Below are positions 23,901 through 43,200 of a DNA stretch of 64,000 bases, in pieces (positions within the stretch are counted from its first letter, which is position 1; each line of letters starts with the position of its first letter). The position numbers were made by a program, and so were the translations under genes. The notes beneath the pieces are model-generated. The model was not told where the DNA came from. It ran no database searches and saw nothing but the letters and a program-made list of their open reading frames with translations. Source of the DNA: Catenuloplanes niger (GTDB lineage: Bacteria; Actinomycetota; Actinomycetes; Mycobacteriales; Micromonosporaceae); the NCBI RefSeq assembly GCF_031458255.1, contig NZ_JAVDYC010000001.1:2737001-2801000 (forward strand). Reading direction: 5' to 3'.

Positions 23901-24593
23901 GGTCGCGGCATCCACCGCGACGAGGCCGCCGTCCTCCGCGCGCACGCTCAGCCCGCCGGTGCTGAGCCCGAGGTCGAGCTCGGCCAGCTCCGGATTCTCG
24001 GCCGCCTCGGCGTTCTTGATCACGAGCACGTGCGAGAACCCGGTCGACGTCACGTTGACCACCAGGTCGACACCGGGCAGCACCTCGCCGTACGTCGCCT
24101 GATCGGCGTTGAGCACCGGCTTCGGCAGCGCCCCCGGCCAGGTCAGACCGAGCGTGCGGCCGGCCCGCTCCACCTCGATGAACGGATCCTCGGCACCGCC
24201 TCCGGACAGTGCCGCACCGAACGGTACGGCCTTCGGCGCGACCGACCCGTCCGAGCGTGCGACGAGCGTGGTGTCCACCGGCACCCAGGAGTCACCCTTC
24301 GCCACGTGCTCCGGCTGGACGTACGTGTTCTCGGTCGTGGTGCCGTCCGGGTTGGCGAACACCTCGCGGCGCTCACCGCGGAACGCCAGGATCTCCACCG
24401 GCTTACCGGTCTTCGCCGCCGCCTCGATCGCGGCCTCCTGCGTCTGCCGCCCGTCCTCCGCCGGGGCGGACACCGCCGGAGCGGCCACCGCCACCTCCGG
24501 CACGTATTCCACATAGGCGAGTGCGCCGAGCAGGCCGGCAAGTCCGGCGGTGAGCCCGGCCGCGCGTATCCATCGCTTGCCGTGTGTCGTCAT
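20997..24593 (-). CDS. Large secreted LamG-like jellyroll protein with DNRLRE-type region
   Basis: A 1198-residue exported protein. The N-terminus has basic residues then AAGLTAGLAGLLGALAYVEY, a signal peptide or membrane anchor. Residues about 60-330 resemble the beta-sandwich regions that precede RHS proteins in actinobacteria. About 340-520 (VDPVWADTSNSGW..., TTWGNQPG) is DNRLRE-like. Fibronectin-like beta regions follow (PNRPAQSQL). Two LamG/concanavalin-type jellyrolls are at the end (about 775-985 and 990-1190, with FYVNGIPQGQ and LYVDGALSATATA). Such proteins bind sugars or cell-surface ligands. The ATG overlaps the stop of the FG-GAP gene (ATGA), so the two are translationally coupled. 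It is the last gene of the RHS locus. Confidence 0.85.
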   Translation of the reverse strand: MTTHGKRWIRAAGLTAGLAGLLGALAYVEYVPEVAVAAPAVSAPAEDGRQTQEAAIEAAAKTGKPVEILAFRGERREVFANPDGTTTENTYVQPEHVAKGDSWVPVDTTLVARSDGSVAPKAVPFGAALSGGGAEDPFIEVERAGRTLGLTWPGALPKPVLNADQATYGEVLPGVDLVVNVTSTGFSHVLVIKNAEAAENPELAELDLGLSTGGLSVRAEDGGLVAVDAATGGAVFEAAPPVMWDSGSAPRAGARTAAPEQADPTRAAPNNAKRAKLGVRLDEDGPGGDAPGKDQTTLTLTPDRAMLTAKDTRWPVYVDPVWADTSNSGWAGVQKAFPNQRNWKFSGNAGVGLCPPEDANCAGGNDVKRILYALPSPYQGKDIISAQFHVGMTYKWGNVTKPVSLHLVHGEISAGTTWGNQPGIGTLQEQKSPTNTVACNARNVEFNVKDALTYAAAIKVSTTTFVLKATNEGDGQAWKRFCGNALLRVNYNTPPNRPAQSQLVTTPGGACVQGANVPYTDTIPELKATLSDPDHNPGRHTEDLLADFELTWTTPAGEKVSRLIATPTKASGSQFSITAPADIPENVVVSWQVRAWDGRARSQWSGEGGQTVCQFVYDRSQPEGPDIDSAEYLPSDAADTTPACVESEAWLGSVGGYGTFTFDSPSADVTSYRYGFNTNPSANNVLTPSTPGGPVSVEWMPTAEGPNFVTVQAFDKANNDTVTSVCTFRVGIRPSTAEWALDEPAGATTAADARGTLPATAAAGVTFDVPGPACQDTATGCTDNAVALNGTATGYLTTGAGAVPIDTSRAFAVGVWARLADDATARTRDQVVLSQDGTGEYAYSIGYEAATRTWTARVPHNDVMNVDSHWAKSTVPAVFGEWTHLALVVNAPARRMTFYVNGIPQGQDLVSASWYADGPVQIGRRYHKTGYRDFFQGEVADVALFDRVLMPEQVRAASELPPRRVGYWTLNSAAGGTSPYYSDDDVTPGQDLTLAGGPVLYAPDLDADPTATSALVGAGHLVLDGVDDHAYTGGPVAATDGSFTVSMRVLPSSAQCGTGRAAISQAGTRSSGFVIRCGTSGRWEAVLPRDDANGAAATVIDTGVPVSTDGSGQHLALVYDAFLNTVSLYVDGALSATATASHSSDWAAGGGLQVGRALADGVYGQYFAGVVDDVRVYTGVATTPMVQLLASRQEQTQL

Positions 24594-26248
24594 GACGCGG
24601 TCCATCCGATGAGTGCGGAACCGGCGGGAGCGGTGGTGCCGGCGTTCGGGAACACGTAGTCGTAGTTCAGCGTCCCGGCCGCCAGCCAGAACCACGGAAT
24701 ACCGAAGAGCTTGTCGTCGCCGGTCGGCGTACCGATGTGCAGCCGGGCAGCGGACTCACTCATCGCCATGCCGATCATCTCGCCGGCCGTCGGATCACCC
24801 GGCAGGATCGTGTCCCGGTCCACGCCGATGTCACCCGGGATCGTGGTGGACGTGGCGCGGAAGACCCGGATCGTGCCCGCGTTCCGCACCCCCCGCACAT
24901 CCTTGCCCGGCACGCCGACCGCCAGCAGCAGCGTGTCGTCGGTGACCGGCCCGGGCGCGGCGTGGTGAGCCAGCCGCACACTGAAGCCGAAGTAGCCACC
25001 GCGCTGCGGGTCGCCACCGATTCCCGGCGTCGCCTCCGTCACCGCGCCGAGCACGCTGTACGCCGTGTCGGTCACGACGAACCGCTGCACCATGCCCGCA
25101 TCCGGGACGCCGCCGACCTCCTCGTTCGGCACACCGACCGCGAGCAGCGACGTGGCGGTCCCCTTGTACTGGATGATCGCCACCGACTTGCCCCACTGGT
25201 CGCCGCGCCGGGCCACGCCCGGGATCTCGGTGCCCGCGGTGTCCTTCGAGTCCTGGTTGATGTCGGCCACCCACTTCGGCAGGTCACCGTTCATCGCCAC
25301 GCTGCTGTACACCTGCGACGCCCCGGCGAATCCCTGGCCGGAGACGGTCTGCCCCGGCCGCCCCAGCACGAAATGATGGGTGGACGCGTCAAGGGCATAG
25401 CCGACCTGGTCGTCACGCTCCGGATCACCCGGTACGCCGTTGCCGCTCCACATCGCGTAGTTCGCCGTGCCCCGCACCACGTGCACGATCCCCGCGTCCC
25501 AGATGTCGCCCAGATCCTCCCCGGGCGCACCGATCAGCAGGTACGGCTCGAACGCGGCCGTCCGCGCCGCCGCGACGGCGAACCCGAAGTTGTCCCGCCC
25601 CTCCGCGACATTGCCGAAGCCGCCGGAGCCCTGCGTCCAGTTCTCACTGGCCTTCCCCTTGCCGAGACCGTCCGGCGACCCGTAGATCAGGTGCACCATC
25701 CCGTGGTCCCGCCCACCGGCCGTCGAATCCTCGTACGGCACCCCGACCAGCAGATCCGTGCAGCTGTCCGAGTTCCAGTCCACGGCCTCCATCGCGAAGC
25801 CGAACTGGTCCTCAGCCCCGGCCGCGAAGGCACCGCCACTGGCGAACGTCTGATCGATGACCTGAGTACCGGCCACCCCCTCGTACTGCACCACGATCTG
25901 CCCGGCGCCGTTGTTCGCCCCCGGGTCGGCGATGGCGATGTCGCGCTTCAGATCCCCATTGAAATCGTGCGCACCACCGATGGTCCCACCACAGCCGGCC
26001 GCGACCGCACCAGCGTTGGCGGCCGCCACAGTGCTGGCGGAAGCCAGAGCGTCGGCAGGCGCCAGAGTGTTGGCAGCCGCCACAGCGTCCGCCACGGCAG
26101 CCGGTTCCGCCGCCGTAGGCTGCCGAGGCCCGGCGGATGCCGAACCGGTGAGGAACCCCGCACCGATGAGTACACAACCAAAGACCGCGAACACGTGACG
26201 CGATCGACCATCCGGTCTTATTTTCAGAATCCCGCGCATGACATCCAC
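24590..26248 (-). CDS. Secreted FG-GAP/integrin-alpha-like beta-propeller protein
   Basis: A 552-residue secreted protein. The signal peptide is VFAVFGCVLIGAGFLTGSASA (cleavage after ASA), followed by an Ala-rich linker and then FG-GAP/VCBS blades with calcium-binding loops: FNGDLKRDIAIADPG, DWNSDSCTDLLVGVP, GMVHLIYGSPDGLG, LLIGAPGEDLGD, DINQDSKDTAG. The loops follow the D-x-N/D-x-D pattern of FG-GAP repeats. The GTG at 26248 is chosen because GGGAGGAACT precedes it and the decayed paralogue next door starts at the aligned GTG; an ATG three codons later is the alternative. It lies between a pseudogene copy of itself and the LamG gene it is coupled to. Confidence 0.85.
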   Translation of the reverse strand: MDVMRGILKIRPDGRSRHVFAVFGCVLIGAGFLTGSASAGPRQPTAAEPAAVADAVAAANTLAPADALASASTVAAANAGAVAAGCGGTIGGAHDFNGDLKRDIAIADPGANNGAGQIVVQYEGVAGTQVIDQTFASGGAFAAGAEDQFGFAMEAVDWNSDSCTDLLVGVPYEDSTAGGRDHGMVHLIYGSPDGLGKGKASENWTQGSGGFGNVAEGRDNFGFAVAAARTAAFEPYLLIGAPGEDLGDIWDAGIVHVVRGTANYAMWSGNGVPGDPERDDQVGYALDASTHHFVLGRPGQTVSGQGFAGASQVYSSVAMNGDLPKWVADINQDSKDTAGTEIPGVARRGDQWGKSVAIIQYKGTATSLLAVGVPNEEVGGVPDAGMVQRFVVTDTAYSVLGAVTEATPGIGGDPQRGGYFGFSVRLAHHAAPGPVTDDTLLLAVGVPGKDVRGVRNAGTIRVFRATSTTIPGDIGVDRDTILPGDPTAGEMIGMAMSESAARLHIGTPTGDDKLFGIPWFWLAAGTLNYDYVFPNAGTTAPAGSALIGWTAS

Positions 26249-26373
26249 AGTTCCTCCCTCCAAAAATGCGACTACGACAAAGAACGACATGGCACCAATG
26301 CCAGTCGGCGTACGCCGCAGATTCTTGGAAAGTAACCACCGCACTGCGGACGCCCGCTGATTCCCGCTTCATC

Positions 26374-27412
26374 CCGGTGCCCGTACCGAGCGCGGCATAC
26401 GCCGGGTCCGTTACAACGAACCGCTGATCACCCGCCCAGCCATCTCGGTCCTGGAACCGTCCTTCGAGTCCTGATCGATGTCAGCCACCAGCTTCGACAG
26501 CCCCCGGTTCATCGCCGTACTGCTGAACACCTCCGTCGAGCCGACGAACGCAACGTTGCCGATGACGCCATCCGACCGCTCAGCACGAAATCATGCGCAC
26601 TTGCGTTCAGCGGGTAGCCGACCCGACCGTCAGCCACCGCCGCGCCCGGAATCCCGTCGCCGACCCAGAGCGTGTAGTTCATGGTCCCGCGCAGCATGTG
26701 CACGAGCCCCGTGTCCCAGTGGCCGAAGGTGTCCTCGCCCGGCACCCCGATCAGGAGGTACGGCTGATTCGCCGCCGTCCGCGACGCGGCAACGGAGAAC
26801 CCGAAGTTGTCCCGGCTCTCCGCGACATCCCCGAACCCGGCGGCGTCACTGTCCTGCGTCCAGTTCTCACTGACCTTGCCCTTGCCCAGCCCGTCCGGCG
26901 ACCCGTAGATCAGGTGCACCATGCCGTGATCGCGCCCACCGCTCGCCAGATCCTCGAAGGGCACCCCGACCAGCAGATCCGTGCACCCATCCGAATCCCA
27001 GTCCACGATATCCATTGAATACCCGAACTGATCCCCGGCCTGAGCACCGAACTTATTGTTACCGGCGACGGCCGGATCAAGGACCTGAGTGGTGTTGATT
27101 CCCTCGTACTGCACTATTATTCGTCCAGCGCCATCATTAGCACCAGGGTCGGCTATAGCAACATCTCGGCGCCGATCCCCGTTGAAAGTCATACGCACCA
27201 CCGGTCCCATTACACACGCCCGCCGCCACGCTGCCAGCAAATGCAGAATCAGTCGATATTCCAACAGGGACAGCTCTTGCTAGATAAATGGGCGCCGCAG
27301 ATGCCGAGCCATTGAGCGACACAGCAGCAATCAGCACGCAGCCGAAGATTGCGAGCGCATGACGAGATCGACCCCTATATCCAACTAATGGAAAGCCGCG
27401 CAAACTTGACAC
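26374..27412 (-). pseudogene. Decayed tandem paralogue of the secreted FG-GAP gene
   Basis: Read on the minus strand from a GTG at 27412, the protein aligns with its intact neighbour (signal peptide ALAIFGCVLIAAVSLNGSASA, then VCNGTGGAYDF). An extra base in the run 27185-27187 then shifts the frame; the next frame continues FNGDRRRDVAIADPGANDG down to HDFVLSG. A second shift near 26570 leads into VIGNVAFVGSTEVFSS, and DIDQDSKDGSRTEMAG then jumps to QRFVVTDPAYAALG, implying an internal deletion. At least three lesions make a sequencing error an unlikely explanation. It lies 126 bp upstream of the functional copy. Confidence 0.85.
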
Positions 27413-27582: not shown

Positions 27583-28728
27583 TTAAGCCTCAGAGTTACC
27601 CAAGGCGAGACGCCGCGCCAACGAAACGCGAACGTCCTGCGGATCGATGGCCTGCTCGCGCAACAGGCGCCGACCAATATCGTCGGAGTCGACGAGAATG
27701 GAATACAAGAGATGCGCACTTCCCACCGGCGCGCTACCAACACCTCGCGCAGAGTCCGCGACTCGCACCGCAGTTATCGTCCACGGCGGATTCTTCGGAT
27801 TACTCCTCCAGGCCCGCCGCCTCTGCGGTGAAGCGGACTGCTCTTCCCGCATGACCGATTCGAGGTATCGGTACGCCTTTCCTCGATCAAATCCGATGGA
27901 TTTCAGTACGATGCCACAAGCTGAAAGATAATTATCCGACGGGTAAAAATCACCCGCCATCATCTCTTCTTCCAGCACCACAACCGCCAGCAGCAAATGC
28001 GCCGACGTCGTCTGAGGCCACCCCGAGCGGACCGTTTCAGCAATGGCTTCGTCTTCCAAAAACGCTAGAGCCGGGCTCGCGTTAGTCAACAGATGAACGA
28101 CTCCAGACGTCAGATGACGTGTCAACGCCCCCATTGCACGGTTCTCCTGGCCTGGCGAGACGAGAACCCCAGCCCGGTGCATCAGCTCGGCGAGCGCCCG
28201 ACGCGGAGGCTCACCTCCGGGTGTCGGCCACACCTGTCGCGCAACCGTCGTCAAGTGATCCAGATTCACTCCTCGCTGCCGAATCAATCGAGCCGGCACT
28301 CCCTCTTGGTCCGCCATCAGCGCCTCTAGCAGGTGATCTGCACCCACCCATGAATCCCGGCGCGAAGCAGCGATCGCCATCGCGAGACGAAGCACCGATC
28401 GCGCCCCATTTGTCCAAGAGGGAACATTCGATGGCGTGCCGTCACGCACCCAGCCAAACACACGCCAATGCACTTCCTTCAGAGCGCGTCCCAACTCAAT
28501 TTCGACCTCAGGTACAAGATCGACTGCGGCAGCTTCCACGCCCTGATGCAAATCGTATCCAGTCACCCTGACCGGCCGAGGGCCTACCAACGAAGCAATA
28601 TTAGGGAATGCATTAAGCAATGCGACAAAAACCGTGTCCGTACCGATTGCCAGCTGATTCAGGTCAGCGGCAACTCGACATGCGCCTTGAAGCACTCGGT
28701 ACAGGCCGCCACCAACAACAACAGACAT
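27583..28728 (-). CDS. Clp-N repeat protein in the immunity position of the RHS toxin
   Basis: A 381-residue soluble protein with no signal peptide. It contains several degenerate Clp-N (ClpA/ClpC N-terminal) repeats: VGADHLLEALMADQEGVPA with LIRQRGVNL, TTSAHLLLAVVVLEEE, and VGSAHLLYSILVDSDDIG with LLREQAIDP, plus a weaker one near the N-terminus (TVFVALLNAFPNI). No ATPase domain is present. Clp-N modules bind adaptor or substrate proteins. The gene begins 30 bp after the RHS stop with GAGG before its ATG. Its base composition is much less GC-rich than the chromosome, like that of the toxin tip. Position and matching composition suggest an immunity protein or tip-specific chaperone; this is inference. 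Confidence 0.75.
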   Translation of the reverse strand: MSVVVGGGLYRVLQGACRVAADLNQLAIGTDTVFVALLNAFPNIASLVGPRPVRVTGYDLHQGVEAAAVDLVPEVEIELGRALKEVHWRVFGWVRDGTPSNVPSWTNGARSVLRLAMAIAASRRDSWVGADHLLEALMADQEGVPARLIRQRGVNLDHLTTVARQVWPTPGGEPPRRALAELMHRAGVLVSPGQENRAMGALTRHLTSGVVHLLTNASPALAFLEDEAIAETVRSGWPQTTSAHLLLAVVVLEEEMMAGDFYPSDNYLSACGIVLKSIGFDRGKAYRYLESVMREEQSASPQRRRAWRSNPKNPPWTITAVRVADSARGVGSAPVGSAHLLYSILVDSDDIGRRLLREQAIDPQDVRVSLARRLALGNSEA

Positions 28729-28758: not shown

Positions 28759-31700
28759 CTATGAGCGATGCCGACCGCGATACCGCTCAGGCGCTCGATG
28801 CATTGCCGGATACCCACCGCCGTTTTCATAGTATGCACGCCTAGAATAGTAGGCACCATACGCGACCCGCCCAGCGACATCCAATCCGGTTTTCAAGTTG
28901 CCCTCCGGCAAGTAACCGAGGATTTTCGACGGAAGGCTGGCCGACCATTTATCCGTCGCACCTTCAACGGCCCCAACCACTGCAAATTTCAGCGGTACTT
29001 CAGCAGTCGCCTCCGGCCGAAGGTGCTGCGGTTCGTAATCTTCGAGTTGACTGGACTCACCTTCCGCACGGTGCAACCCGTCGTACTCGTCCCCACAATT
29101 GTGTACGAGTACAGAAGTACTGCCGACGACAACATAGTATGTGTGAATCTCGCCGACGGTAAGGTTGCGCACCTGCTGATAAGACTGAGTCCACCGAGAG
29201 ACCGCAGTAATCTGGACCCAGGTGCCGGCAGATGTCTGAAGCCACTGACCTGGTTGCAGGTCGATAGCCTGCAACCATTCACCTGCCTCGGGGATCCAGA
29301 ACGGGTGATTGTCGGTGGCCGTGATCTCGTCAACCGAGTCACCCTCGTCACCGTCGGTGTCGACAGTGAGCCGAACAAGGCTCTTCTCGCCGCTGCCGAC
29401 GATCGTGGCGACTACCGTCTTTGCTGCGGTCTCGCCCGTCTCAGGCTGTGTGGCCAGGACTTGATCTCCGACCTCGACGTCCTCGATCGGCTTGGTAGTG
29501 CCGTTGGCCATCAGCACCAGGGTCCCTGGCGTAAAGCTGTTAGGCCTGCCGCTTGTAAGACAACTCCCGAGAGCGTCAACGCGCTTGCGGCTCGCGATCC
29601 ACTTCTGGGCGCCCTCGATGAGCTTGCCGCCGAGGTTGTACAGGCGTTTGCCCAGGGCTGCGGCCTTGCCCCAGCGGAGGCCGTACTTCGCGGCGAGTTT
29701 GGCCGGGAGGCCGCCGATGAAGCTGGTGAGGACGGTGACTGCGGTGGCGGCGCAGCCGCCCAGGTCGCCCTTGGTGAAGCAGTCCAAGGCGTCGGTGATG
29801 CCCAATTCTTCCATCAGGATCACGCCGAGTTCCTTGGCGACCGAGATGACCATCTGCCTGGCCGCCTCGGCCTCGGCCTGGGCGCGCGCGACCGCGGGGT
29901 CGACCGTGGGCGTGGGGGCGACGCTGTAGCCGCCGATGTTGGCGGTGGTGGCCTTTTTGCCGCTGGGGCGGTCGTACAGGTAGAACTTGCCGTTCGAGGC
30001 CTTCTTGAACTGGGTGTTGTTGGTCTTGTGGAACATCTCCTCGGCGTGGCCGCCCTCGGTGACCAGCGGGCGGAGTCCGTCCGGGTCGGAGTACGAGGTC
30101 GGGTTGTTGTTGCCGTAGGCGTACCCGTGCATCTGTTGCGGGTCGGCGCTGTCGATGATCGGATCGACCGAGATGAACCGGCCGATCGCCGGGTCGTATT
30201 CGCGCGCCCCGAGGTGCGTCAGCCCGGTCGACGAGTCCTGTGTCCCGCCGACGAAGCCCTTCTCACTCGACCACGACGCCGGCTGGGTGCCGCGCGGCGT
30301 ACCGAACGGCGTGCTGCGCCGCATCGTGATCGCGCCGGTCGTGGCGTCGATGCTGGCCTGGCCGGTGCCGTGGTGGTCGGCGACCTCGAAGAACGTGCCC
30401 GCCACGGTCCGGACCACGACCGCGCCGCTGCCGACCGGGTAGTAGCGGGTGCCGTCGACGACGCCGGTGGCCGTCTTCAGCTTCAGCTCCATGCCGCCGA
30501 CGTACAGCGTGGTCGCGCCCGGCTCCTTGCGGACGATCCGGTTGCCGGAGGCGTCGTAGATGTAGCTGGTCTTCTGGCCCGCCTTGGTGACCGAGTCGAG
30601 TTTGCCCTCGGCGTTCCAGTCGAACGTCTGCTCCTCGCCCACCTGTACGCGCTTGGTCATGTTGCCCGCGGCGTCGTACTCGTAGGTGTGCAGCCGGTCG
30701 CCGGAGATGGTCTTCTCGGTCACCTGGGTGAGCGCGTGCGGCCGGGCCGCGCCGGGCTCCGGCGTGACGTAGTCGCGGGTCACGCTGGCGGCGCCGCCGA
30801 TGCCGTGCTGGGTTTCGGAGACCCGGTTGCCGGCCTTGTCGTAGGTGTACGTCGACCGGTACGCCGCCGGTCCGCCGACCGTGCCGGACTCACACGTGTC
30901 CGCGGTCGACCGGGCCTCGGTCATCCGGCGCAGGTAGTCGTAGGTGAAGCACTGGATGTCGGTCTGGCCGCCGGCCGGCTTGTCCTCGATCCTCTCGACG
31001 TTGCCGGACGCGTCGTACGTGTAACGCTGGTCGAAGTCGATGACCGGGGCGCCCTCGCGGTCGAGCCGGGACTTCACCAGGCGGCTGGTGCCCTCCTCGT
31101 ACTCGAAGGTCTGCCACGCCTTCTTGCCACCGGTGTTCAGCTCGGCCTGCAGCAGCTCACCGGTCTGCCCGTACGACGTCTTGGTCAGGATCGTCGACGT
31201 AGCGTCTCGGATGCCGGTCAGCCGCTGCAGATCGTCGTACGAGTAGATGACACCTTCCCCGGGCAGGCCACCGGACGCTGGGAACGTCGTCGACTTCACC
31301 GACCCGTCGGCGTTGTATGCCGTGTGGAAGATGTAGGTGCCGCCCAGGGCGTCGCCGACCTCGGCCTTCGGGAAGCTGAACCGCACCTCGGTCGGCCGAT
31401 AGTTGACATCGAAAGCCGAGTTGATCTGCATGAACTTGCTGCCGTTGACGATCCGGCTCGCGGTGTACATCTCGCCCTTGGCGACCGTGTCGTACGTGTA
31501 CTCGGTCAGCTTCGTGCCGGTCTTGTCCGTGCCCGCGTAGGTGGCCAGCGGCCGCCCGACCACGTCGTACTCGGTGTGGATGCTCTCGCCGTTGCCGTTC
31601 GTCGTGGTGACCGGCCGGTCGAGGTCGTTGTACGCGATCGTCGACGTGCCCGCGTCCGGGTCCTCCGACTTGATCTTCCGGCCGCGCTGGTCGTAGAAGT

Positions 31701-34700
31701 ACCGCCAGACGTTGCCCTCCGGGTCGGTGACCGTCGCCTGCTGCCCACGCACGTTGTACGTGTACGTCGTGGCGTCGAAGGCACCGTTCGCGGTCGAACC
31801 GTGGTACTGCCGCAGCTCGATCAGCGCGCCCCGCGCGTCGGTGATCCGCGTCGTCGGAGTCTCGCCCGCGACCGGGTCGACGTGCACCCGATCCCCGCCG
31901 TAACGCGTGGTCGAGTGCCACTTCTCCTGCCCCGAGACCAGCGTCGTGGTCACCTTGACCCGGTCGGCCCCGTCGTAGGTGTACGCGGTCTGCAGGTCGA
32001 CCAGCCCGTTGTCGATCGCCTTCGTACCGTCGCTGGTCAGCAGCGCGCCCGACGGCGCACCCGCCGCGAAGTACGTGTCGTTGACCTTCGCCAGCTGGCC
32101 GGTGTGCGTGTAGAACGTGTCCGCGACCAGCCTGCCCCCCTCGGGGCCCTCGGACTGGGTCTGCCGCGGCCGGAGGAAACCGTCGTAGAGCGTGTACTCG
32201 GCGCCGTAGCCGACGCCGTCCGCCTCGATCTTCTCGGTCTTGGTCGACACGATCGTGCCGGCCTGGATCGTGTAGCTGTACTTGATCGACGGTGTCGTGC
32301 CCGCGCCTCGCGACCGGTCCGGGTTCCACACGCTGACGAGCCGGCCGATCGCGTCGTACGCCATCTCGGTCTTGCGCCCGTTCGGGTCCGACTGCGACTT
32401 GGGCAGGCCCCAGGCCGGCTCGTACTCCGTGGTGGTGACGAAGTTGAACGGTGCCGGGCTGGTCTCCACCTTGAGCGCGGTCAGCCCGTTGATCTCGGTG
32501 TACGCGGTCTTGGTGAGCGTCCCGACGCCGTCGCGCGACTCGACCGGACGCCCGTAGCCGTCGTAGACCGTGCTCGCCACCGGCACGAACGTCGCCGTGG
32601 TCCCGTCGTGCGTGGCCAGCTTCTCGGTCCGCGTCACGTCGCCCCTGGACGGCGCGGCGCCGAGCACGGTCGAGCCGTCGTGGTAGTTCCGGTCGTGGGT
32701 GAGCAGCTGCGTGGCCCGGTTCGGCGTCGCCGAGCACAGCACGGAGAAGCCCTCGACCTGCGACACCACCTGGTACAGGTGGATGTTCGGGTTGTCCGCG
32801 TAGGTGGTGCGGGTGCACTTCTCGTCACCGGTCACGGCCACGTCGCCGTGCTCGTCGACGCTCGTCACCCGGCCGAGCGCGGTCTCGTAGGTGGTGATGG
32901 TCTTCGTCTCCCGCCACCCGCCGGACTCCAGCGCGGTGAATCCGCGCTCGGAGGCCGGCGACACGAAGAACGAGCGGTCCCAGCCCCAGCTGTGCTGCAC
33001 GGCGGCGGTCTCGTGCCGCCACGGTGACGTGACCGTCTTCGAGATCATCGTCGCGCCGTCGAAGGCCTGCGTCTCGTACCCGAAGCCGACCAGTTCGTCG
33101 TGGTCGGTGTGCACGGTGCCGACCGAGTCGGTGACCGTGCCGCCCAGACCGCGCAGGTAGAAGTGGTCGCCGCGGGTCGTGGTGATCTGCCCGTTGCCCT
33201 GCCGCACCTGCACGTGTGCGTAGCCGCGCCAGTCCGACCAGGTCAGGTACTTGGCGTCGGAGAGGCCGTTCGGCTCCTCCTTCTTCCACCCGGCGTTGCC
33301 GAGGTATTCGTAGGAGGTGACCATGTCCGGCGCGCCACCGGTGTTGTCCGTCTCGATCACGGAGTCCACCACGTACTTGTGGAACCAGTCCGTGATCGGT
33401 TCCTTCTCGCCGGTCGGGTTCCACTTGACCGGGTAGCAGCGCTTCGTGCTCGACGACTCCGACGTCGGCAGGCTGCCGATGGCGCAGTCCGCGTCCTTGT
33501 AGTTGACGTCGACCTGACCGCCGGTGTCGTTCAGCACCAGGGTGAGGCGGGGGCGGATCAGCGGCGCGATGTTGTCCGCGGTGCCGTTGTCGATCCGGTT
33601 CGGCAGCTGCTTCGGGCCGAGCTCGACCGAGGGCATCGTGACGGTGCCACCGGCCAGGCCACGGTGCTGGATCTTGTGGAGCCACAGCGAGCGGGAGCCG
33701 TCCGCGTTGTTGGTGAACGTGTGCGTCAGGTCCCACGCGTCCACCGGCGTCCACGTCGAGGCGCCGCGGATCTCGGTGGTGACGGAGGTCAGGCGCTTGC
33801 GGGTCCAGAACGACGGCGACGCCTGCGACGGCGTGCACTTCGTGTTCTCCGCGCAGTTGCGGTCCCACGGCACGTCCGGCCACGACGTCGCGGTGCCGGC
33901 GTTCAGCGAGCCCGGCGCACAGTTGACGGTGCTGGTGGGCAGGCACCGCTCATCCGTCTTGAAGTGCACCCGGGCCGGCGCGTTCGTGGAGTAGACCGCG
34001 CCGTCCTTCTGCCCGTAGTCGACCCGGGTCAGGTAGCCGCCGCGGTCGTACCTCGTACCGTTGACGTCGAACTTCGCGTTCTTCGCGTAGTAGTTGAATT
34101 CCTTCTGGTAGAAGTACGAGACGACGTTGCCGTGCAGGTCCTTGACGTAGTCGAGGTTCCAGCGCCACCCCTCGGTGCACGCCGCGTTCGCGAAGGTGGC
34201 GTTGTAGCAGGGCTCGCCCGCGTCGTCGCTGTAGACGGGCACGGTCCAGGCCGAGTTCGTCTCCTGCTTGTCCGACGACCATCCCGGCAGGCGATTCAGG
34301 CCGAAGAAGTACTGCGTGCCGTCGACCGTGGTGACCTTCCAGTGCTCGCCGTTGGAGTCACCGTTCGTCGCACCGGTCAGGCGCTCGATCTTCGTGCCGT
34401 CGTCCGAGCTCAGCTTGTACGCGTTACCGGACTTGATCAGCTTCCCGGACCGGCCGGCCAGGGAGATCGTCGCGTTGTCGTACGCCCAGCAGAGGTCACC
34501 GACCGCGTCGTGGCCGTCGTCCACACATGCCTTGTAGGACCGCTCGATGAACCCCGGCTCGAACGCGAAGCCCTCACCGATCCACGAGCCCTGGTTGTTC
34601 GTGGCCGAGGTGCGCCCGTCCACGGTCTGCGAGCTGTAGGACAGCGTCACGCCCGGCGCCTCACCACCCGGCACCGGCGGCACGCGCATCGGGTAGGACC

Positions 34701-35490
34701 AGCTGAACGCGCCGGACGAGTTCGCCACGTTCCACTTCGACGACGGCGACAGCGACGTGGCCGCGTAGCTGCCCTGCGCCGACGCCTCCGCCGCGGCCGC
34801 CGCGATCAGCGACGACGAGGGTACGTCCGCGGACAGCGTCCGTGCCTGCGCGTCGTTCTCCGTCTGCAACGGCACCGGGAGGCACGTGGCGACGTTCGGC
34901 GTGGTCAGCGCGCACTCCGGCAGCCGCACCAGGCGCAGTCGTGCGCCGTAGTCGCCGCCGAACGCGTCGGCGAAGCCCGCGTAACTCAGCGACAACCGCA
35001 CCGATCCGGTGGACTTGCCGGCGACCGCGCCGACCCGCACCACGGGGCCGTCCACACCGGCGCGTGCGGAGGTCGCGCGGTCCAGCGTCTGCACCCGCAC
35101 CCGATCCGGCGCCGATCGAGCCGCGGCGGCGGCCGAACGTCCCGCGGGTGCCTTGACCGACACGGACATACCGCCGACAGCGACCGGTTTCGCACCGGCG
35201 GTGACCGCAACCTCCGCGGTCCCGGCCGCGGGCCAGGCAACCGTGGCCGGGGTGGCGGTCATGGCGTGCACCGGGTTCACCGGGCGCGGCTTCGCGGTGC
35301 CGTCCACACCGCGTACCGGCTCGCCCTGCTCCTGTGTGGCCGGACGGCTCAGTCCCGGTGCGGCCGTGGCCGGCTGGGCCACGACCTGCAGCAGCGTCGA
35401 GGAGACGATGATGGCGCTGAACGCGGCCAGACCGCGCACACGCGTCGATCGGCTACGGCGTTTCCAGGACTTGATGAGTCGACCGACCAT
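28759..35490 (-). CDS. RHS-family polymorphic toxin with Hint domain and novel C-terminal tip
   Basis: A 2243-residue exported protein. The signal peptide (about residues 17-44) ends VVAQPATAAPG. Residues about 250-450 resemble the SpvB/TcaC beta-sandwich (VTLSYSSQTVDGR, SWIGEGFAFEPGFIERSY). Many YD/RHS repeats follow (YDGFLRPRQTQSEG, YTYDGADRVKVT, YDASGNRIVRKEPG), closing with the RHS core REYDPAIGRFISVDPI and YAYGNNNPTSYSDPDGL near residue 1770. Residues 1984-2132 are a Hint domain (NSFTPGTLVLM, DNHPFW, ending VLVHNC), which should release the last 111 residues (28762-29094). That tip matches no toxin family I recognise. The ATG at 35490 is preceded by GGGAGG; an ATG at 35511 is weaker. Confidence 0.92.
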   Translation of the reverse strand: MVGRLIKSWKRRSRSTRVRGLAAFSAIIVSSTLLQVVAQPATAAPGLSRPATQEQGEPVRGVDGTAKPRPVNPVHAMTATPATVAWPAAGTAEVAVTAGAKPVAVGGMSVSVKAPAGRSAAAAARSAPDRVRVQTLDRATSARAGVDGPVVRVGAVAGKSTGSVRLSLSYAGFADAFGGDYGARLRLVRLPECALTTPNVATCLPVPLQTENDAQARTLSADVPSSSLIAAAAAEASAQGSYAATSLSPSSKWNVANSSGAFSWSYPMRVPPVPGGEAPGVTLSYSSQTVDGRTSATNNQGSWIGEGFAFEPGFIERSYKACVDDGHDAVGDLCWAYDNATISLAGRSGKLIKSGNAYKLSSDDGTKIERLTGATNGDSNGEHWKVTTVDGTQYFFGLNRLPGWSSDKQETNSAWTVPVYSDDAGEPCYNATFANAACTEGWRWNLDYVKDLHGNVVSYFYQKEFNYYAKNAKFDVNGTRYDRGGYLTRVDYGQKDGAVYSTNAPARVHFKTDERCLPTSTVNCAPGSLNAGTATSWPDVPWDRNCAENTKCTPSQASPSFWTRKRLTSVTTEIRGASTWTPVDAWDLTHTFTNNADGSRSLWLHKIQHRGLAGGTVTMPSVELGPKQLPNRIDNGTADNIAPLIRPRLTLVLNDTGGQVDVNYKDADCAIGSLPTSESSSTKRCYPVKWNPTGEKEPITDWFHKYVVDSVIETDNTGGAPDMVTSYEYLGNAGWKKEEPNGLSDAKYLTWSDWRGYAHVQVRQGNGQITTTRGDHFYLRGLGGTVTDSVGTVHTDHDELVGFGYETQAFDGATMISKTVTSPWRHETAAVQHSWGWDRSFFVSPASERGFTALESGGWRETKTITTYETALGRVTSVDEHGDVAVTGDEKCTRTTYADNPNIHLYQVVSQVEGFSVLCSATPNRATQLLTHDRNYHDGSTVLGAAPSRGDVTRTEKLATHDGTTATFVPVASTVYDGYGRPVESRDGVGTLTKTAYTEINGLTALKVETSPAPFNFVTTTEYEPAWGLPKSQSDPNGRKTEMAYDAIGRLVSVWNPDRSRGAGTTPSIKYSYTIQAGTIVSTKTEKIEADGVGYGAEYTLYDGFLRPRQTQSEGPEGGRLVADTFYTHTGQLAKVNDTYFAAGAPSGALLTSDGTKAIDNGLVDLQTAYTYDGADRVKVTTTLVSGQEKWHSTTRYGGDRVHVDPVAGETPTTRITDARGALIELRQYHGSTANGAFDATTYTYNVRGQQATVTDPEGNVWRYFYDQRGRKIKSEDPDAGTSTIAYNDLDRPVTTTNGNGESIHTEYDVVGRPLATYAGTDKTGTKLTEYTYDTVAKGEMYTASRIVNGSKFMQINSAFDVNYRPTEVRFSFPKAEVGDALGGTYIFHTAYNADGSVKSTTFPASGGLPGEGVIYSYDDLQRLTGIRDATSTILTKTSYGQTGELLQAELNTGGKKAWQTFEYEEGTSRLVKSRLDREGAPVIDFDQRYTYDASGNVERIEDKPAGGQTDIQCFTYDYLRRMTEARSTADTCESGTVGGPAAYRSTYTYDKAGNRVSETQHGIGGAASVTRDYVTPEPGAARPHALTQVTEKTISGDRLHTYEYDAAGNMTKRVQVGEEQTFDWNAEGKLDSVTKAGQKTSYIYDASGNRIVRKEPGATTLYVGGMELKLKTATGVVDGTRYYPVGSGAVVVRTVAGTFFEVADHHGTGQASIDATTGAITMRRSTPFGTPRGTQPASWSSEKGFVGGTQDSSTGLTHLGAREYDPAIGRFISVDPIIDSADPQQMHGYAYGNNNPTSYSDPDGLRPLVTEGGHAEEMFHKTNNTQFKKASNGKFYLYDRPSGKKATTANIGGYSVAPTPTVDPAVARAQAEAEAARQMVISVAKELGVILMEELGITDALDCFTKGDLGGCAATAVTVLTSFIGGLPAKLAAKYGLRWGKAAALGKRLYNLGGKLIEGAQKWIASRKRVDALGSCLTSGRPNSFTPGTLVLMANGTTKPIEDVEVGDQVLATQPETGETAAKTVVATIVGSGEKSLVRLTVDTDGDEGDSVDEITATDNHPFWIPEAGEWLQAIDLQPGQWLQTSAGTWVQITAVSRWTQSYQQVRNLTVGEIHTYYVVVGSTSVLVHNCGDEYDGLHRAEGESSQLEDYEPQHLRPEATAEVPLKFAVVGAVEGATDKWSASLPSKILGYLPEGNLKTGLDVAGRVAYGAYYSRRAYYENGGGYPAMHRAPERYRGRHRS

Positions 35491-35530
35491 CACGCCTCCC
35501 CCGTCAGACATGGATCAAGGTCGAGGCGAG

Positions 35531-35812: not shown

Positions 35813-35912
35813 TCGTTCAGTCAGGACCTCCACCAGGGGGAATTGCGTTTGCCCAGCTCAGATAGCACCAACTAGGACCACCCCCGACCATGCACGACCT
35901 CTTCGGACCATT

Positions 35913-35936
35913 TCGGTTAGCCCATGGGCTAACCGA
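35913..35936. promoter_or_regulatory. 24-bp perfect palindrome upstream of the integrase (putative operator)
   Basis: The two halves TCGGTTAGCCCA and TGGGCTAACCGA are exact reverse complements with no spacer. The palindrome ends 19 nt before the integrase GTG and 6 nt before a TACGCT that could be its -10 (35943-35948). It is well placed to bind a dimeric repressor controlling integrase, or an accessory recombination protein. Confidence 0.65.
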
Positions 35937-35955
35937 TTTGGGTACGCTGACGCAC

Positions 35956-37593
35956 GTGGCCAAGCTTGAGACGCGACGCAGCAAGGACGGCAAGTCGGGT
36001 TCATACCGCGTCAGTTGGCTGTTCGGCGGCTCTCGGGGCGGCAAGACGCAAACCTGCACCTTCACCGGGCTCGACAAGGGCGCGCTCTCGCTGGCAAACA
36101 CCGCGAAGGAGCTGGCAGAGGCTCGCCGGCACCGCATCACCAGCGACGAGGTTTACGCATCCGTCCTTGGAGAGCGCAAGAAGGTGAGCAGTACGCCCCT
36201 GGTCCGCGACTGGTTCGAGGAGTGGATCGGGTCACGTGTACGGCTCAGTCCACGGGAGCGCAGGAACTATCGCTCGAAGTTCGAGCGACGCATCGCCCCA
36301 CTGATCGGACATCTCCCCGTGGACCAGGTGACCTTCGTTGAGATCGGAAAGATCATCAACGACCTGAGGGTGCCACCCGTCAGCAGCGGGCACAAGCCCC
36401 TCGCGAACACCTCCGTAACCCGGTACTACTCAGTGGTCTTCTCTCTTTTCAAGGCTGCCGTGGCCAGGGGGCACATAACCGTCAACCCCTGTCTGGAGTC
36501 CGGGTTCGTCCGTAACGAGACGGACCATGACGACGAGGGGACCGAGCACCGCTTCTACCTCACCGAGGACCAATACCAGGTACTGCTGTCCGCGTTCAAA
36601 CCCGAGGACCGCATCGTGATCGAGCTGCTTGTTGGTACCGGTGGGCGGTACTCCGAGGTCACGGCACTGGCGGTGGAGGACATCCTGGCTCCGACAGCTA
36701 CGGAGGGCCCGCGGATCCGGTTTCGTCGTGCATGGAAGGAGAGCCGCGAGAAGAAGGGCTCCTGGTACCTCGGCCCGCCGAAGAGCCGGCAGCGACGCAC
36801 TGTCGGAATCTCCATGAACCTGTATGAGCAGCTGGTCGATTACGTGCAGGGCCTGCCACCGGAGGCGTTCGTCGTCCGGGCGCGCCGGGGAGGGCCGATG
36901 CGCTATCAGAACTGGCACACGCACATCTGGAAACCGGCGGTGCTGAACGCCCGGCGCTGTGGCCTGCATCCTCCCCCCAACCAGGAAACCCGCATGGAGG
37001 GCTCTTCCGGCCGCTGCGGCGATTACGGGGGCATCGGCGCCTACAGCGGGAAACCGTGCAACCTCTCCGTGGTGCCGGGATACAACCGGTGCGGTCGCCA
37101 TTTCGGGCCACGCGCAGACGCCGTCTCCACCTGTGGGTGTCCCGGGGTGCTTCCGAGAAACCTTAACGAACACGACCTGCGTCACAGCCATGCGGGATTC
37201 TTGTTCGCCAATCCAACCGTTACCGTCAACGCCATCAGCCGGCGCTTGGGTCACGGCAGCATACGTACCACCGTCGACATCTACGGCGGGCTACTTCCGA
37301 AGGCCGAGCAAGCGGCCATAGACGCGATTACCGCTGCCACGCGCAGCAAGCCCGGCCGACCAACGGCGGTGAAGCCTTTGAGCCTGCCGAAAACGACGTC
37401 ACGTGAGGTGGTACTAGCCGCTGCCCGTTCAGTCGCCGATAAGGACGGCCGCGTCGCCCGGAAGGATCTCACGGCCAAGATTGGTGATAGGCTAACGAAG
37501 ACAACTCTGGCGTACACTCTCACAGCACTGGTGAAGTCCGAGGCCTTGCTGCGCGAGCAGCGGAACAGGTACCGACTTCCCACTGCGGCCTAG
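35956..37593 (+). CDS. int: Tyrosine recombinase/integrase
   Basis: A 545-residue phage-type integrase. The N-terminal half has a SAM-like DNA-binding domain (about 90-190). The catalytic domain shows the first Arg in GTGGRYSEVTAL, HDLRHSHAG (His-x-x-Arg), LGHGSIRTT and the nucleophile Tyr in TVDIYGG. An unusual Cys/His-containing insertion (CGDYGG, CNLSVVPGYNRCGRHF, STCGCPG) lies between the first Arg and the HxxR and may bind zinc. The C-terminal ~90 residues form an extra basic, winged-helix-like tail. It would recombine attP with the tRNA-Arg site. The GTG at 35956 is preferred because the conserved KLETRRSKDG opening begins there; an ATG at 35890 would put the palindrome inside the gene. 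Confidence 0.9.
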   Translation: MAKLETRRSKDGKSGSYRVSWLFGGSRGGKTQTCTFTGLDKGALSLANTAKELAEARRHRITSDEVYASVLGERKKVSSTPLVRDWFEEWIGSRVRLSPRERRNYRSKFERRIAPLIGHLPVDQVTFVEIGKIINDLRVPPVSSGHKPLANTSVTRYYSVVFSLFKAAVARGHITVNPCLESGFVRNETDHDDEGTEHRFYLTEDQYQVLLSAFKPEDRIVIELLVGTGGRYSEVTALAVEDILAPTATEGPRIRFRRAWKESREKKGSWYLGPPKSRQRRTVGISMNLYEQLVDYVQGLPPEAFVVRARRGGPMRYQNWHTHIWKPAVLNARRCGLHPPPNQETRMEGSSGRCGDYGGIGAYSGKPCNLSVVPGYNRCGRHFGPRADAVSTCGCPGVLPRNLNEHDLRHSHAGFLFANPTVTVNAISRRLGHGSIRTTVDIYGGLLPKAEQAAIDAITAATRSKPGRPTAVKPLSLPKTTSREVVLAAARSVADKDGRVARKDLTAKIGDRLTKTTLAYTLTALVKSEALLREQRNRYRLPTAA

Positions 37594-37741
37594 AGCTGAC
37601 TCGTCGCGGACTCCCGTTCCTCGAACATTTAGAAGTATTTCGTGGCGCGGCAACCACGCACCAACTAGACGTGCACAATCAAACGGATGCGTCACACCCC
37701 GCGCTCGCACATCGTGCGCCATAGCAGCTCCCCCAATTGCA

Positions 37742-37770
37742 TTGACACGGTTGAAAGAGACCGGTCTACT
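37742..37770 (+). promoter_or_regulatory. Promoter of the IS-truncated gene at 37860
   Basis: TTGACA (37742-37747), a 17-nt spacer and TCTACT (37765-37770) make a plausible housekeeping promoter, 90 nt before the ATG. The 266 bp between the integrase and that ATG otherwise hold nothing I recognise. Confidence 0.5.
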
Positions 37771-37859
37771 TAAGATGGACGAAGAAGCAGGTAGCCGCTG
37801 AGTCACTATCGCCCGAACGGGATCCGCCGTAGAGGCGCATTCAGCCGAAAGGACTCGTC

Positions 37860-38001
37860 ATGACGACACCGAGCGGAACGCCCGCCTACCGGCGCGCCGA
37901 CTTTGACGGTCGGCAAGTAGCGGCCACCTGCACTCATCACGGCTCCTTAACGAGCGTGCCGGTGATGTACCGCGGTAGTCGCGTGACGGTGGCTATGGAT
38001 G
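37860..38001 (+). pseudogene. 5' fragment of an unknown gene cut by IS256-type insertion
   Basis: An ATG with AAAGGA upstream opens a frame (TTPSGTPAYRRADFDGRQVA) for 47 codons, until it meets the left inverted repeat of the IS256-family element at 38002. Beyond that the reading runs into the IS and overlaps the transposase start. With its own promoter and ribosome site this looks like the front end of a real gene whose remainder was lost. The family is not recognised. Confidence 0.5.
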
Positions 38002-39373
38002 GGACTGTACAAATAACGGCTGATCGACCGATCAAGGGAGAGACGCCAGATGACGACCGAGATCACCTCGGGGCAGGAGCCGGCCGCCAGGCCGGCGGAT
38101 GCGGTCACGGATGAGCAGTTGATCGCGATGCTGGTCGATCGGGCTCGTGGTGACGGGCTGAAGCTGACCGGTGAGGGTGGGCTGCTGCAGCAGCTGACCA
38201 AGCGGGTGCTGGAGTCAGCGCTGGACGGTGAGATCACCGACCACGTCGGCTACGACAAGCACGACCCGGCAGGTCGTGGCAGCGGGAACACCCGTAACGG
38301 CAGCCGAACCAAGACCGTGCTCACCGACGTCGGGCCGGTCGAGGTGCGAGTCCCACGCGATGCCGCGGGCACGTTCGAGCCGCAGATCGTGCGTAAGCGG
38401 CAGCGGCGGCTGACCGGCGTCGACGACATGGTGTTGTCGTTGTCGGCCAAGGGGTTGACCCACGGCGAGATCGCCGCGCACCTGGCCGAGGTCTACGGCG
38501 CTGAGGTGTCCAAGCAGACCATCTCCACCATCACCGACAAGGTCATGGACGGCATGGCGGAGTGGCAGAACCGGCCTCTGGACCGGGTCTACCCGGTCGT
38601 GTTCATCGATGCCATCAACGTCAAGATCCGCGATGGGCAGGTCGCGAACCGGCCGATCTACCTCGCCATGGCGGTCACCGTCGACGGGCACCGCGACATC
38701 CTTGGCATCTGGGCCGGTGACGGCGGTGAGGGCGCCAAGCACTGGCTGCACGTGCTGACCGAGCTGAAGAACCGCGGCGTCGCCGACGTGCTGATGCTCG
38801 TCTGCGACGGGCTCAAGGGCCTGCCGGAGGCGGTCGAGACCGTCTGGCCTCGCACGATCGTGCAGACGTGTGTGGTGCACCTGCTGCGCAACTCGTTCCG
38901 CTACGCCGCGCGCCAGGACTGGGACAAGATCGCCAAGGCGCTGCGGCCGGTCTACACCGCACCGACCGAGGACGCCGCGGCCGAGCGGTTCCTCGAGTTC
39001 GCCGAGGCGTGGGGCCGTAAGTATCCGGCGATCGTGAAGCTGTGGGAAAACGCCTGGGCCGAGTTCGTGCCGTTCCTCGCCTTCGACGCCGAGATCCGCA
39101 AGGTCATCTGCTCCACGAACGCGATCGAGTCGGTCAACGCCCGTATCCGCAAGGCCGTGCGAGCTCGCGGCCACTTCCCGAATGAGCAGGCCGCGCTCAA
39201 GTGCGTCTACATGGCCTTGATGAGCCTCGACCCCACCGGCGCGGGCCGAAGGCGCTGGACCATGCGCTGGAAGGCACCCCTGAACGCCTTCCAGATCGCC
39301 TTCGAAGGCCGGCTCACCCCGGCCGACAACTGACCACCTCAACAACCAAGATCAGCCGTTAACTTGACACTCC
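38002..39373 (+). mobile_element. IS256-family insertion sequence (copy A)
   Basis: A 1.37-kb element flanked by imperfect 24-bp inverted repeats (38002-38025 and 39350-39373, 19 of 24 matching, with TAACGGCTGATC identical). It contains one transposase gene. No 8-bp target duplication is found, and the flanks belong to two unrelated broken genes, suggesting a deletion or rearrangement adjacent to the element. Confidence 0.8.
38050..39333 (+). CDS. IS256-family transposase
   Basis: A 427-residue transposase with an N-terminal DNA-binding region and the family DDE residues in VFIDAINVKIRDGQ, VCDGLKGLPEAV and CSTNAIESVNARIRKAVR. The family C-motif HLLRNS and the C-terminal KAVRARGHFPNEQAALK are intact. 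It cuts and pastes the surrounding element in the cytoplasm. GGGAG lies about ten nucleotides before the ATG. It is full length, so it may be active; it resembles copy B on the other strand but is clearly divergent from it. Confidence 0.95.
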   Translation: MTTEITSGQEPAARPADAVTDEQLIAMLVDRARGDGLKLTGEGGLLQQLTKRVLESALDGEITDHVGYDKHDPAGRGSGNTRNGSRTKTVLTDVGPVEVRVPRDAAGTFEPQIVRKRQRRLTGVDDMVLSLSAKGLTHGEIAAHLAEVYGAEVSKQTISTITDKVMDGMAEWQNRPLDRVYPVVFIDAINVKIRDGQVANRPIYLAMAVTVDGHRDILGIWAGDGGEGAKHWLHVLTELKNRGVADVLMLVCDGLKGLPEAVETVWPRTIVQTCVVHLLRNSFRYAARQDWDKIAKALRPVYTAPTEDAAAERFLEFAEAWGRKYPAIVKLWENAWAEFVPFLAFDAEIRKVICSTNAIESVNARIRKAVRARGHFPNEQAALKCVYMALMSLDPTGAGRRRWTMRWKAPLNAFQIAFEGRLTPADN

Positions 39374-39970
39374 CCCATCTCGGTGTAGCCGGTCAGGGTG
39401 CGTAACCGCCCTGTGTGAAGGTCCTGTACCTGCAGCGTCCCGTCGCCGACGATGTTCGCTGTGTGCTGCCCGTCCGGGCTGGAGACCACCGCCCCCGCCG
39501 GCTCGATGTAGCCGGTCAGGGTGCGTGACTGCCCGGTGACAAGGTCCCAGACCCGCAGCATCCCACCGGCGCTGGCGCCGGCCAGGTGCTGCCCGTCTGA
39601 GCGGTACGCCACTGCCTCCACTGTCTCGGTGTTGCCGGTCAAGGTGCGTGACTCCTCGGTGGCAAGGTCCCAGACCCGCACTGTCCCGTCCTGGCCGGCG
39701 CTGGCCAGGTGCTGCCCATCCGGGCTGTACGCCACCGAGATCACTGGCCCGGTGTGGCCGGTCAGGGTGCGTGACCGAAGGTCCCAGACCCGCAGCGTCC
39801 CGCCGTCGCCGGCGCTGGCCAGGTGCTGCCCGTCCGGGCTGTACGCCACGGCCCTCACCGCCTCGGTGTAGTCGGTCAGGTTGCGTGACTGCCCGGTGGC
39901 AACGTCCCAGACCCGCAGCGTCCTGTCAAAGCTGGCGCTGGCCAGGTGCTTCCCATCCGGGCTGTACGCC
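39374..39970 (-). pseudogene. WD40-repeat protein fragment truncated at both ends by insertion sequences
   Basis: Minus-strand reading gives five WD40 blades of about 40 residues each: AYSPDGKHLASASFDRTL, SVAYSPDGQHLASAGQDG, then increasingly degenerate copies ending with VQDLHTGRLRTLTG instead of VWDL. The upstream end stops exactly at the IS21 terminus (39971) and the downstream end at the IS256 repeat (39373), so neither the start nor the stop of the original gene survives. Such blades usually belong to large NACHT or Ser/Thr kinase-WD40 proteins in actinobacteria. The parent cannot be identified. Confidence 0.8.
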
Positions 39971-39976
39971 TGTCAG

Positions 39977-40025
39977 CGCTCACGTAATTCCCCCAAGGGC
40001 CCGTGATCCGCTCACGTAATTCCCC
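39977..40025. repeat. IS21 terminal direct repeats
   Basis: CGCTCACGTAATTCCCC occurs at 39977-39993 and again, identically, at 40009-40025. Multiple copies near the ends are transposase-binding sites in IS21-type elements. Confidence 0.75.
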
Positions 40026-40161
40026 TGGTGCGCGCTCGTCATGGACTACCGGGCCGCTCGTGATGTTCGTGAAGGGGACGGCGAGCGTTCCGCCGTAGTT
40101 GCCAAGATCATCGCTCTGTCGCGTAGATCATCTTCACGTCGGCATGCCCTTTGGGGAGCGG

Positions 40162-41820: not shown

Positions 41821-41869
41821 CCCCCACCCTGCTCACCCCAGCCGAAGCGACGAAGGCCGAGACGACACG

Positions 41870-42637: not shown

Positions 42638-42680
42638 TCCCCCACGGCCTTGTTGCCGCGCCGAGCGCCCTGCCCGCACC

Positions 42681-42875
42681 ATGACCGGTCCGGCACCACG
42701 AAACCTCCCGTCCTGGCCCGAACGCGAGGCACTCAACGCCGGGTTGTTCGCCGACAACACCGAGACCGGCTTCTTCGACGACCTCGGCCGCCCCGTGCCC
42801 TGGCCGGACGACATCGAGAACTGGACGCTCGACGCCTGCCAGCACGACCACGACTCCGCTCAGCCGCCCTTCTAA
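42681..42875 (+). CDS. Small IS21-associated protein of unknown function
   Basis: A 64-residue acidic frame (PSWPEREALNAGLFADNTE, GFFDDLGRPVPWPDDIENW). A second, broken occurrence of TETGFFNGLGRPHPG is found at 44919-44963 after the kinase gene, so this sequence recurs as part of a mobile unit. I do not recognise the family. An upstream ATG at 42609, overlapping istB, would add 24 residues; no clear ribosome site decides between them. Confidence 0.45.
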   Translation: MTGPAPRNLPSWPEREALNAGLFADNTETGFFDDLGRPVPWPDDIENWTLDACQHDHDSAQPPF

Positions 42876-43200
42876 CGCAGGGCTCAGACCGGACGACGAG
42901 ACGCGGAACCCTGACTCAAGGACCGTCGCATGGACGCAGCCCGCGCGCTCTCGCACATCTGCCGAGCTTCCGCCACCGCCCGGGCCGCACGCTCACACAG
43001 CAACAGTTCGGGCCCCCGGCCGTGGGTAGATGTTCAGATGTTTGGCGTAGGGGTCAGCACATCGGTGATTGCCGGGTCGGTGCAACCGGCAGGGTATAGC
43101 GTCCACAACGCCGCGGTGATCCTCTGCCGTTCGCCGTTTGCCGGCCGGGGACTGATCGCGTTCACCCGGAGTGCCAGAGTTAACACGAAGGTAGGCTGCC
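42876..43200. other. Gap between IS21 cargo and the histidine kinase
   Basis: These 325 bp hold no supported gene. The IS21 right end would be expected here but its inverted repeat is not visible. GAAGGTAGG just before 43201 is the ribosome site of the kinase. Confidence 0.4.

Follow-up and report, generated by a model that had tools for sequence, protein, structure and literature searches.

An RHS locus of Catenuloplanes niger with a C-terminal tip behind a Hint domain and a linked Clp_N-repeat gene

A large RHS protein of Catenuloplanes niger ends in a Hint domain followed by a short C-terminal tip, and another gene lies directly behind it. Two questions arise from this arrangement: what kind of protein is the tip, and what does the gene next to it do? 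The features that bear on these questions are listed in Table 1; the window referred to there and in the text is the whole stretch of 64,000 nucleotides that was analysed.

Table 1. Features of the RHS locus (positions in the window) and of a further RHS tip family (positions in the loci named)
Feature	Position	Strand	Remarks
RHS/YD-repeat protein	28759..35511	minus	2250 aa from first ATG; 2243 from second Met (residue 8)
RHS-repeat-associated core	30073..30312	minus	Residues 1734-1813; NCBIfam TIGR03696 Rhs_assc_core, 3.5e-17
PT-HINT domain	29098..29538	minus	Residues 1992-2138; Pfam PF07591, 2.3e-16 (matched residues 1999-2138)
Tip	28759..29094	minus	Gly2140-Ser2250, 111 aa, plus stop; predicted released product from Cys2139
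Motif copy 1, YDGLHR	29068..29085	minus	Missing from three relatives
Motif copy 2, YEPQH	29023..29037	minus	
Motif copy 3, YPAMHR	28795..28812	minus	
Motif copy 4, YRGRHR	28765..28782	minus	
Partner, proposed immunity protein	27583..28728	minus	381 aa, Clp_N repeats; begins 30 bases past the tip stop
Third RHS tip family	L059:7509-7850	plus	Hydrophobic-looking; WRAYWWAVGKAKV and, near the end, WRC
Third RHS tip family	L058:6174-6527	minus	
Third RHS tip family	L127:8184-8426	minus	

The RHS carrier, its Hint domain and the tip

RHS toxins are generally secreted proteins with an RHS shell, in which cleavage by a Hint domain releases the tip. The protein at this locus contains RHS repeats (Pfam RHS_repeat, 2.3e-26), and its N-terminus resembles a Sec signal peptide by eye. 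A preliminary description of the locus gave a length of 2243 residues, which holds if counting starts at the Met at residue 8; the first ATG gives 2250 residues. The PT-HINT domain looks complete from its sequence and directly precedes the tip. In an alignment of this domain with 12 further Hint rows, of which 10 are distinct, position 1 is Ser1992 (NSFTPGT), where inteins carry Cys1; the ATDNHPFW block (TxxH) and the terminal His2137-Asn2138 are kept, and the next residue is Cys2139. The roles that we assign to Ser1992, TxxH and His-Asn are those that we take these residues to have in intein biochemistry. The Hint terminus VLVHNC, which had been recognized at the outset, is located at residues 2134-2139 with the cut point between VLVHN and C, and autocleavage after Asn2138 by the PT-HINT domain is plausible.

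The tip consists of exactly 111 residues plus the stop, as originally given, and contains, in this order, GDEYDGLHRAEGESSQLEDYE, FAVVGAVEGATDKW and GYPAMHRAPERYRGRHRS. As a single sequence, it has no match at E<=10 in Pfam, NCBIfam or the PDB sequences. The tip profile has one match among the PDB sequences, which is at chance level (E 0.17), and five aligned tips have one weak match in Pfam, to MafB19-deam (E 0.27), found in one of the five. At the level of sequence, these single-sequence and profile searches uphold the initial statement that the tip matches no recognised toxin fold. An AlphaFold2 model of the tip, made from a three-sequence input, has a mean pLDDT of 36.3 and is unusable.

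A repeated motif was found in the tip. Each of its four His residues sits four residues past a Tyr (YDGLH, YEPQH, YPAMH and YRGRH), and the Y...H pairs in five tips number 4, 4, 3, 3 and 3, a total of 17 that was reached by none of 20000 shuffles. Because four of these tips are related to one another, the motif count represents one or two independent cases. Within 20 loci, two copies of Y-x-[G/P/A]-x-H-R no more than 40 residues apart are confined to the tips of the own genome, G071, G059 and G328. The G328 tip is the sole further case of the motif, and with 31% identity over the first part its ancestry may be common with that of the others.

An exchangeable tip under purifying selection

The tip profile detected four full copies in 354 Micromonosporaceae genomes (the own genome, G071, G179 and G059), together with a C-terminal remnant of about the last 30 residues in G287. 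A match to the profile in G264 was judged to be chance, and weak matches at loci L012 and L013 from the first family search were unconfirmed by the profile. Among the five genomes of the genus, the tip is present in the own genome alone, and G004 has a weak match at 0.09. The order-wide sample of 397 genomes contained the own tip and four weak matches, which were judged from their alignments to be chance. A wider search of genome contigs had no match to the tip as a single sequence and two to the profile, which are the G179 and G059 loci, and the tip was not found in plasmids, phages or viral contigs. The genome searches scored a limited number of candidates per genome, and absences are provisional to that extent.

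The tip is 64, 51 and 42% identical to its relatives in the three other genomes. Compared pairwise, the four tips have nonsynonymous distances of 0.33-0.67 in all six combinations, far lower than the synonymous distances, which range from 2.1 to saturated. These distances, together with the relatives in three genomes, imply that the tip is a coding sequence and not a chance reading frame. The tip evolves under purifying selection. Twenty-five columns are invariant across the four tips, including H24, R26, E44, K49, H99, R100, H109 and R110.

The preliminary description made its toxin reading depend on the tip not being conserved among strains, and indeed it is not. The congener G001 has the same RHS protein, with 84% identity over residues 1-2144, after which an unrelated tip follows, and the gene downstream is a different one as well. 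The G001 replacing tip (L086 / L115) reads as deaminase-like (ICHRCQENL). The RHS protein of G353 has 56.5% identity over residues 5-2140 and ends in a third tip. The RHS cores that carry the tip in G071 and G059 are about 38% identical to the own core over the aligned parts, and the tips themselves are 64% (G071) and 42% (G059) identical; for the Hint domain plus tip, the values are 49% and 39%, respectively. The G179 carrier is cut by a contig end and is absent from this comparison.

The base composition also changes at this boundary. The G+C content in the own locus falls from 0.68 in the core to 0.58 in the tip, with 0.59 in the downstream gene, and the corresponding values in G071 are 0.67, 0.55 and 0.61. 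The tip and downstream gene of G179 have 0.50 and 0.58. At G059 the values for core, tip and downstream gene are 0.68, 0.64 and 0.71, and the last of these is not low. The tip is an exchangeable cassette that is swapped at the Hint boundary.

Several features of the neighborhoods can be mentioned here. At G059 (L015:6682-9803, minus strand), the tip and its downstream gene are followed by a broken RHS fragment that has a second Hint domain and a further tip, an arrangement that resembles an orphan cassette that has been displaced. In the window, two consecutive ORFs that are FG-GAP-like by eye (24590-27264, minus strand), one long and one partial, lie immediately past the Clp_N gene of the own locus and look like a duplication. 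The RHS locus also borders a patchy and possibly mobile region of mostly lower G+C (35890-52000), within which a transposase-like ORF (49281-50372) and a short WD-repeat-like ORF (39352-39858) were noticed by eye.

The Clp_N gene behind the tip

The preliminary description did not mention that the downstream gene encodes a Clp_N protein. The predicted protein, referred to here as the partner, matches Pfam Clp_N at 5.1e-14 with 52.6 bits, versus a curated cut-off of 20.7, and two stretches of its gene pass in a Clp_N search of the genome. By eye, it is composed of four Clp_N half-repeats, equal to two ClpA/B/C-type N-domains. A search of the PDB sequences with the partner profile yields 20 matches at E<=0.01, each of them Clp-named (best 7.6e-5), including ClpC, ClpA and ClpC2 N-domain entries, with the ClpC2 chain 8ad9 at 5.4e-4. 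The AlphaFold2 model of the partner, also from a three-sequence input, is unusable (mean pLDDT 41.6); a Foldseek search with this model placed ClpC N-domains first (E>=0.056) and was given no weight.

The linked downstream gene expected from the initial description is present behind all four full-length tips (own, G071, G179 and G059), where the gap is 29-34 bases, and also next to the tip remnant in G287. The homologues at G071, G179 and G059 have 44-48% identity to the own partner. In 29 other RHS loci, the partner profile has no match at E<=1e-3. Fifteen of these 29 control loci have a Hint end and a tip, and none has the partner, within downstream DNA that covers about 1 kb in 14 loci and 273 bases in one. 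Locus L092, which was tip-bearing by an earlier count, failed the length rule and is outside the 15; it also has no match to the partner profile.

The partner family is larger than the set of genes behind this tip. Its profile identifies 22 places in 19 of the 354 family genomes, and at nine of these an RHS-type tip or its remains lie directly upstream: the own locus, G071, G179, G059, G287, G328, G220, G200 and a second locus in G179. The G328 tip is a different RHS-Hint tip with the motifs SYTGAHR, GYEGTHR and DYSPRH, and two Clp_N paralogues follow it; the second copy in this cluster is another of the 22 places. A third RHS tip family precedes Clp_N proteins in G220 and G200 and, in truncated form, at the second G179 locus. 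The third-family tips in G220 and G200 have no Hint match before them and follow the end of the RHS core (placed by eye in G200). The Clp_N family recurs, with divergent members, behind two other RHS tip families. At one more of the 22 places, in G042, a Clp_N-repeat gene is located 4 bases downstream of a gene for a 2434-aa hemopexin/neuraminidase-like/ABC_toxin_N protein (L051:924-9330, plus strand), in which Pfam detects no Hint domain.

At eleven of the 22 places, the DNA examined contains neither an RHS match nor a Hint match, and no toxin could be recognised by eye; three of the 11 (G012, G136 and G277) are partial matches. The idea that every member of the Clp_N family confers immunity to an RHS toxin was consequently rejected, and these 11 places imply that the family does not serve solely in this way. 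The partial Clp_N homologue in G012 has a GIY-YIG-domain gene (L055:8535-9131, minus strand) immediately upstream. Four more distant Clp_N members, detected when 374 genomes were searched across the class, adjoin unrelated genes, and no partner homologues were found in plasmids. In a tree of 15 partners, the tip-associated and other members are intermixed, with weak support within the main group; this intermixing may reflect repeated loss or gain of tips.

What the tip and its partner may do

For the tip and its partner we infer toxicity, cleavage, binding and immunity, and they would fit together as follows. The RHS protein, once secreted, would display the Hint domain, which would cut after Asn2138 to give a 112-residue tip, Cys2139-Ser2250. 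The freed tip would be an exchangeable effector cassette, and its cognate immunity protein would be the product of the gene 30 bases downstream, with what are apparently two ClpA/B/C-type N-domains. The Clp_N protein is a candidate antidote because of its position, its linkage to the tip, its persistence beside eroded tips and its recurrence behind unlike tips. We read the partner family as an immunity family, and it seems likely to us that the locus is a polymorphic-toxin module in which the Clp_N gene provides the immunity. Protection would most likely occur by direct capture, with the Clp_N repeats binding the four Y-x-[G/P/A]-x-H-R-type motifs of the tip; we propose Y-x-[G/P/A]-x-H-R as the recognition motif for the Clp_N protein, although it may instead have a metal-related or catalytic role. 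The lack of motif copy 1 in the three relatives speaks against this reading. Rather than belonging to one of the known nuclease or deaminase classes of enzymes, the tip itself is probably a peptide-like effector that is short and rich in motifs.

As to what such an effector might attack, the first guess would be the victim's own Clp N-domains, i.e., ClpC, with the partner serving as a decoy. Clp N-domains are places where toxic peptides naturally bind. Mycobacterial ClpC2, which is partly homologous to ClpC1, keeps cyclomarin away from ClpC1 and is protective (PMC10030653), and Mycobacterium smegmatis is killed by a synthetic peptide that acts on ClpC (PMC10967448). Taken together, the two cases suggest that the tip may engage ClpC and that the partner may be a decoy. 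ClpC2 is homologous to Clp N-domains and captures a toxic compound, as the partner is proposed to do; the compound bound by ClpC2 is an antibiotic (PMC10030653). The partner has two N-domains by eye, and its similarity is weak. This weak similarity to ClpC N-domains argues against a decoy, as does the acidic position of GTEH, which by-eye alignment shows to be Asp in repeats 1 and 2 of the partner and Ala in repeats 3 and 4. We take the acidic residue of the ClpC GTEH to be the phospho-arginine site in each repeat. Clp as the target of the tip is speculative, and we consider it improbable. A broader version would have effectors that kill via the ClpC N-domain with YxGxHR repeats, N-domain decoys as the antidotes, and several unlike RHS tips convergent on ClpC. 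Such convergence would explain why the neighboring genes all encode Clp_N proteins, and this broader version strikes us as a long shot. The own genome has two ClpC-like proteins (G000:C1:7686993 and 4636525, by eye), and their N-domains are nearly identical.

The strongest alternative accepts the same module and immunity gene and differs in the action of the tip, which would be a very divergent enzyme toxin, e.g., a metal-independent RNase that uses its conserved His, Arg and Glu; the Clp_N protein would then be an immunity scaffold and no more, comparable to SUKH proteins and with no connection to Clp proteases. The 25 invariant columns, with the His, Arg, Glu and Lys residues named above, would fit a catalytic set, and the pairing of at least three unlike RHS tips with Clp_N proteins is what one would expect of a general-purpose scaffold. 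However, neither the single sequence nor the profile matches a family or structure, and all four tip His residues are within the repeated motif, three of them invariant, which is more binding-like than catalytic. We give this enzyme alternative a real chance, somewhat short of even. One specific identity, a MafB19-like deaminase, was rejected, as Cys is lacking from the tip beyond Cys2139 and the sole Pfam match of this kind is the one noted above. The zinc ligands of MafB19-like deaminases are in a Cys-x-x-Cys motif.

A second alternative is that the partner acts as an adaptor or a chaperone, either maintaining the solubility of the tip or passing it to secretion or to a Clp machine. In ClpA/B/C, adaptors and substrates dock on the Clp_N domains, and a Clp_N gene also lies immediately downstream of the gene for the Hint-free 2434-aa protein of G042. 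However, the Clp_N gene tracks the tip and not the RHS core (G001 has the same core, another tip and another downstream gene), and partners remain by eroded tips in G287 and at the second G179 locus, as orphan immunity genes would. An adaptor or chaperone role is unlikely in our opinion.

The preliminary description also suggested that the tip might act on membranes. It has a moderately hydrophobic FAVVGAVEGA stretch, and the third RHS tip family appears by eye to be hydrophobic and cationic. The usual 19-residue Kyte-Doolittle value for a transmembrane segment is about 1.6; the maximum for the tip is 0.93, and it is at most 1.03 across five tips. The net charge of the tip is -2, with His uncounted. 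These values make transmembrane action unlikely, and a membrane-spanning (pore-forming) toxin was rejected for want of a segment of transmembrane grade; membrane action in general we regard as very improbable. Thus, the original interpretation stands as far as an unrecognised, exchangeable tip after PT-HINT and a linked downstream gene are concerned, and its membrane part does not. Finally, that the tip is a neutral, decaying C-terminal tail and no toxin would agree with the failure of AlphaFold to give a fold, but it is scarcely credible in view of a nonsynonymous distance well under the synonymous one in 6 of 6 pairs and the linkage to a conserved partner.

The candidate module can be compared with several known systems. 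Judged by its domains, the carrier belongs to the standard RHS polymorphic toxins, and the novel element is the Clp_N partner. The module shares with those RHS polymorphic toxins that carry a pretoxin Hint domain (PMC3482391) the RHS repeats, a core and a PT-HINT domain ending in HN, a variable C-terminal tip with its own downstream gene and exchange between relatives; it differs from them in that the tip is outside the Pfam and NCBIfam families and that the downstream gene is a Clp_N-repeat gene. Two passages of Zhang et al. 2012 mention Clp or AAA+ proteins or chaperones; both concern T6SS/PVC ATPases, and neither describes a Clp_N immunity protein (PMC3482391). Passages of a 2020 paper describe vWA-MoxR/FtsH ternary conflict systems that also employ Clp_N repeats; in those passages, Clp_N is fused to vWA and the systems are NTP-dependent and without an RHS tip (PMC7159879). 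In the open-licence papers covered, we found no report on a Clp_N antidote of an RHS toxin or on the tip family. Immunity scaffolds of the SUKH type place one fold behind several unrelated tips. The partner family would be like SUKH in providing one immunity fold for several tips, and unlike it in that the fold is a Clp N-domain.

If the Clp_N protein is indeed the antidote, polymorphic toxins would gain an immunity fold that originates in protein quality control, and the neighboring genes would make several tips of unrecognised kind identifiable. If, in addition, ClpC is what the tip acts on, then a protein would be known as a natural ligand of the target of cyclomarin- and ecumicin-type antibiotics, and bacterial competition would be tied to regulated proteolysis.
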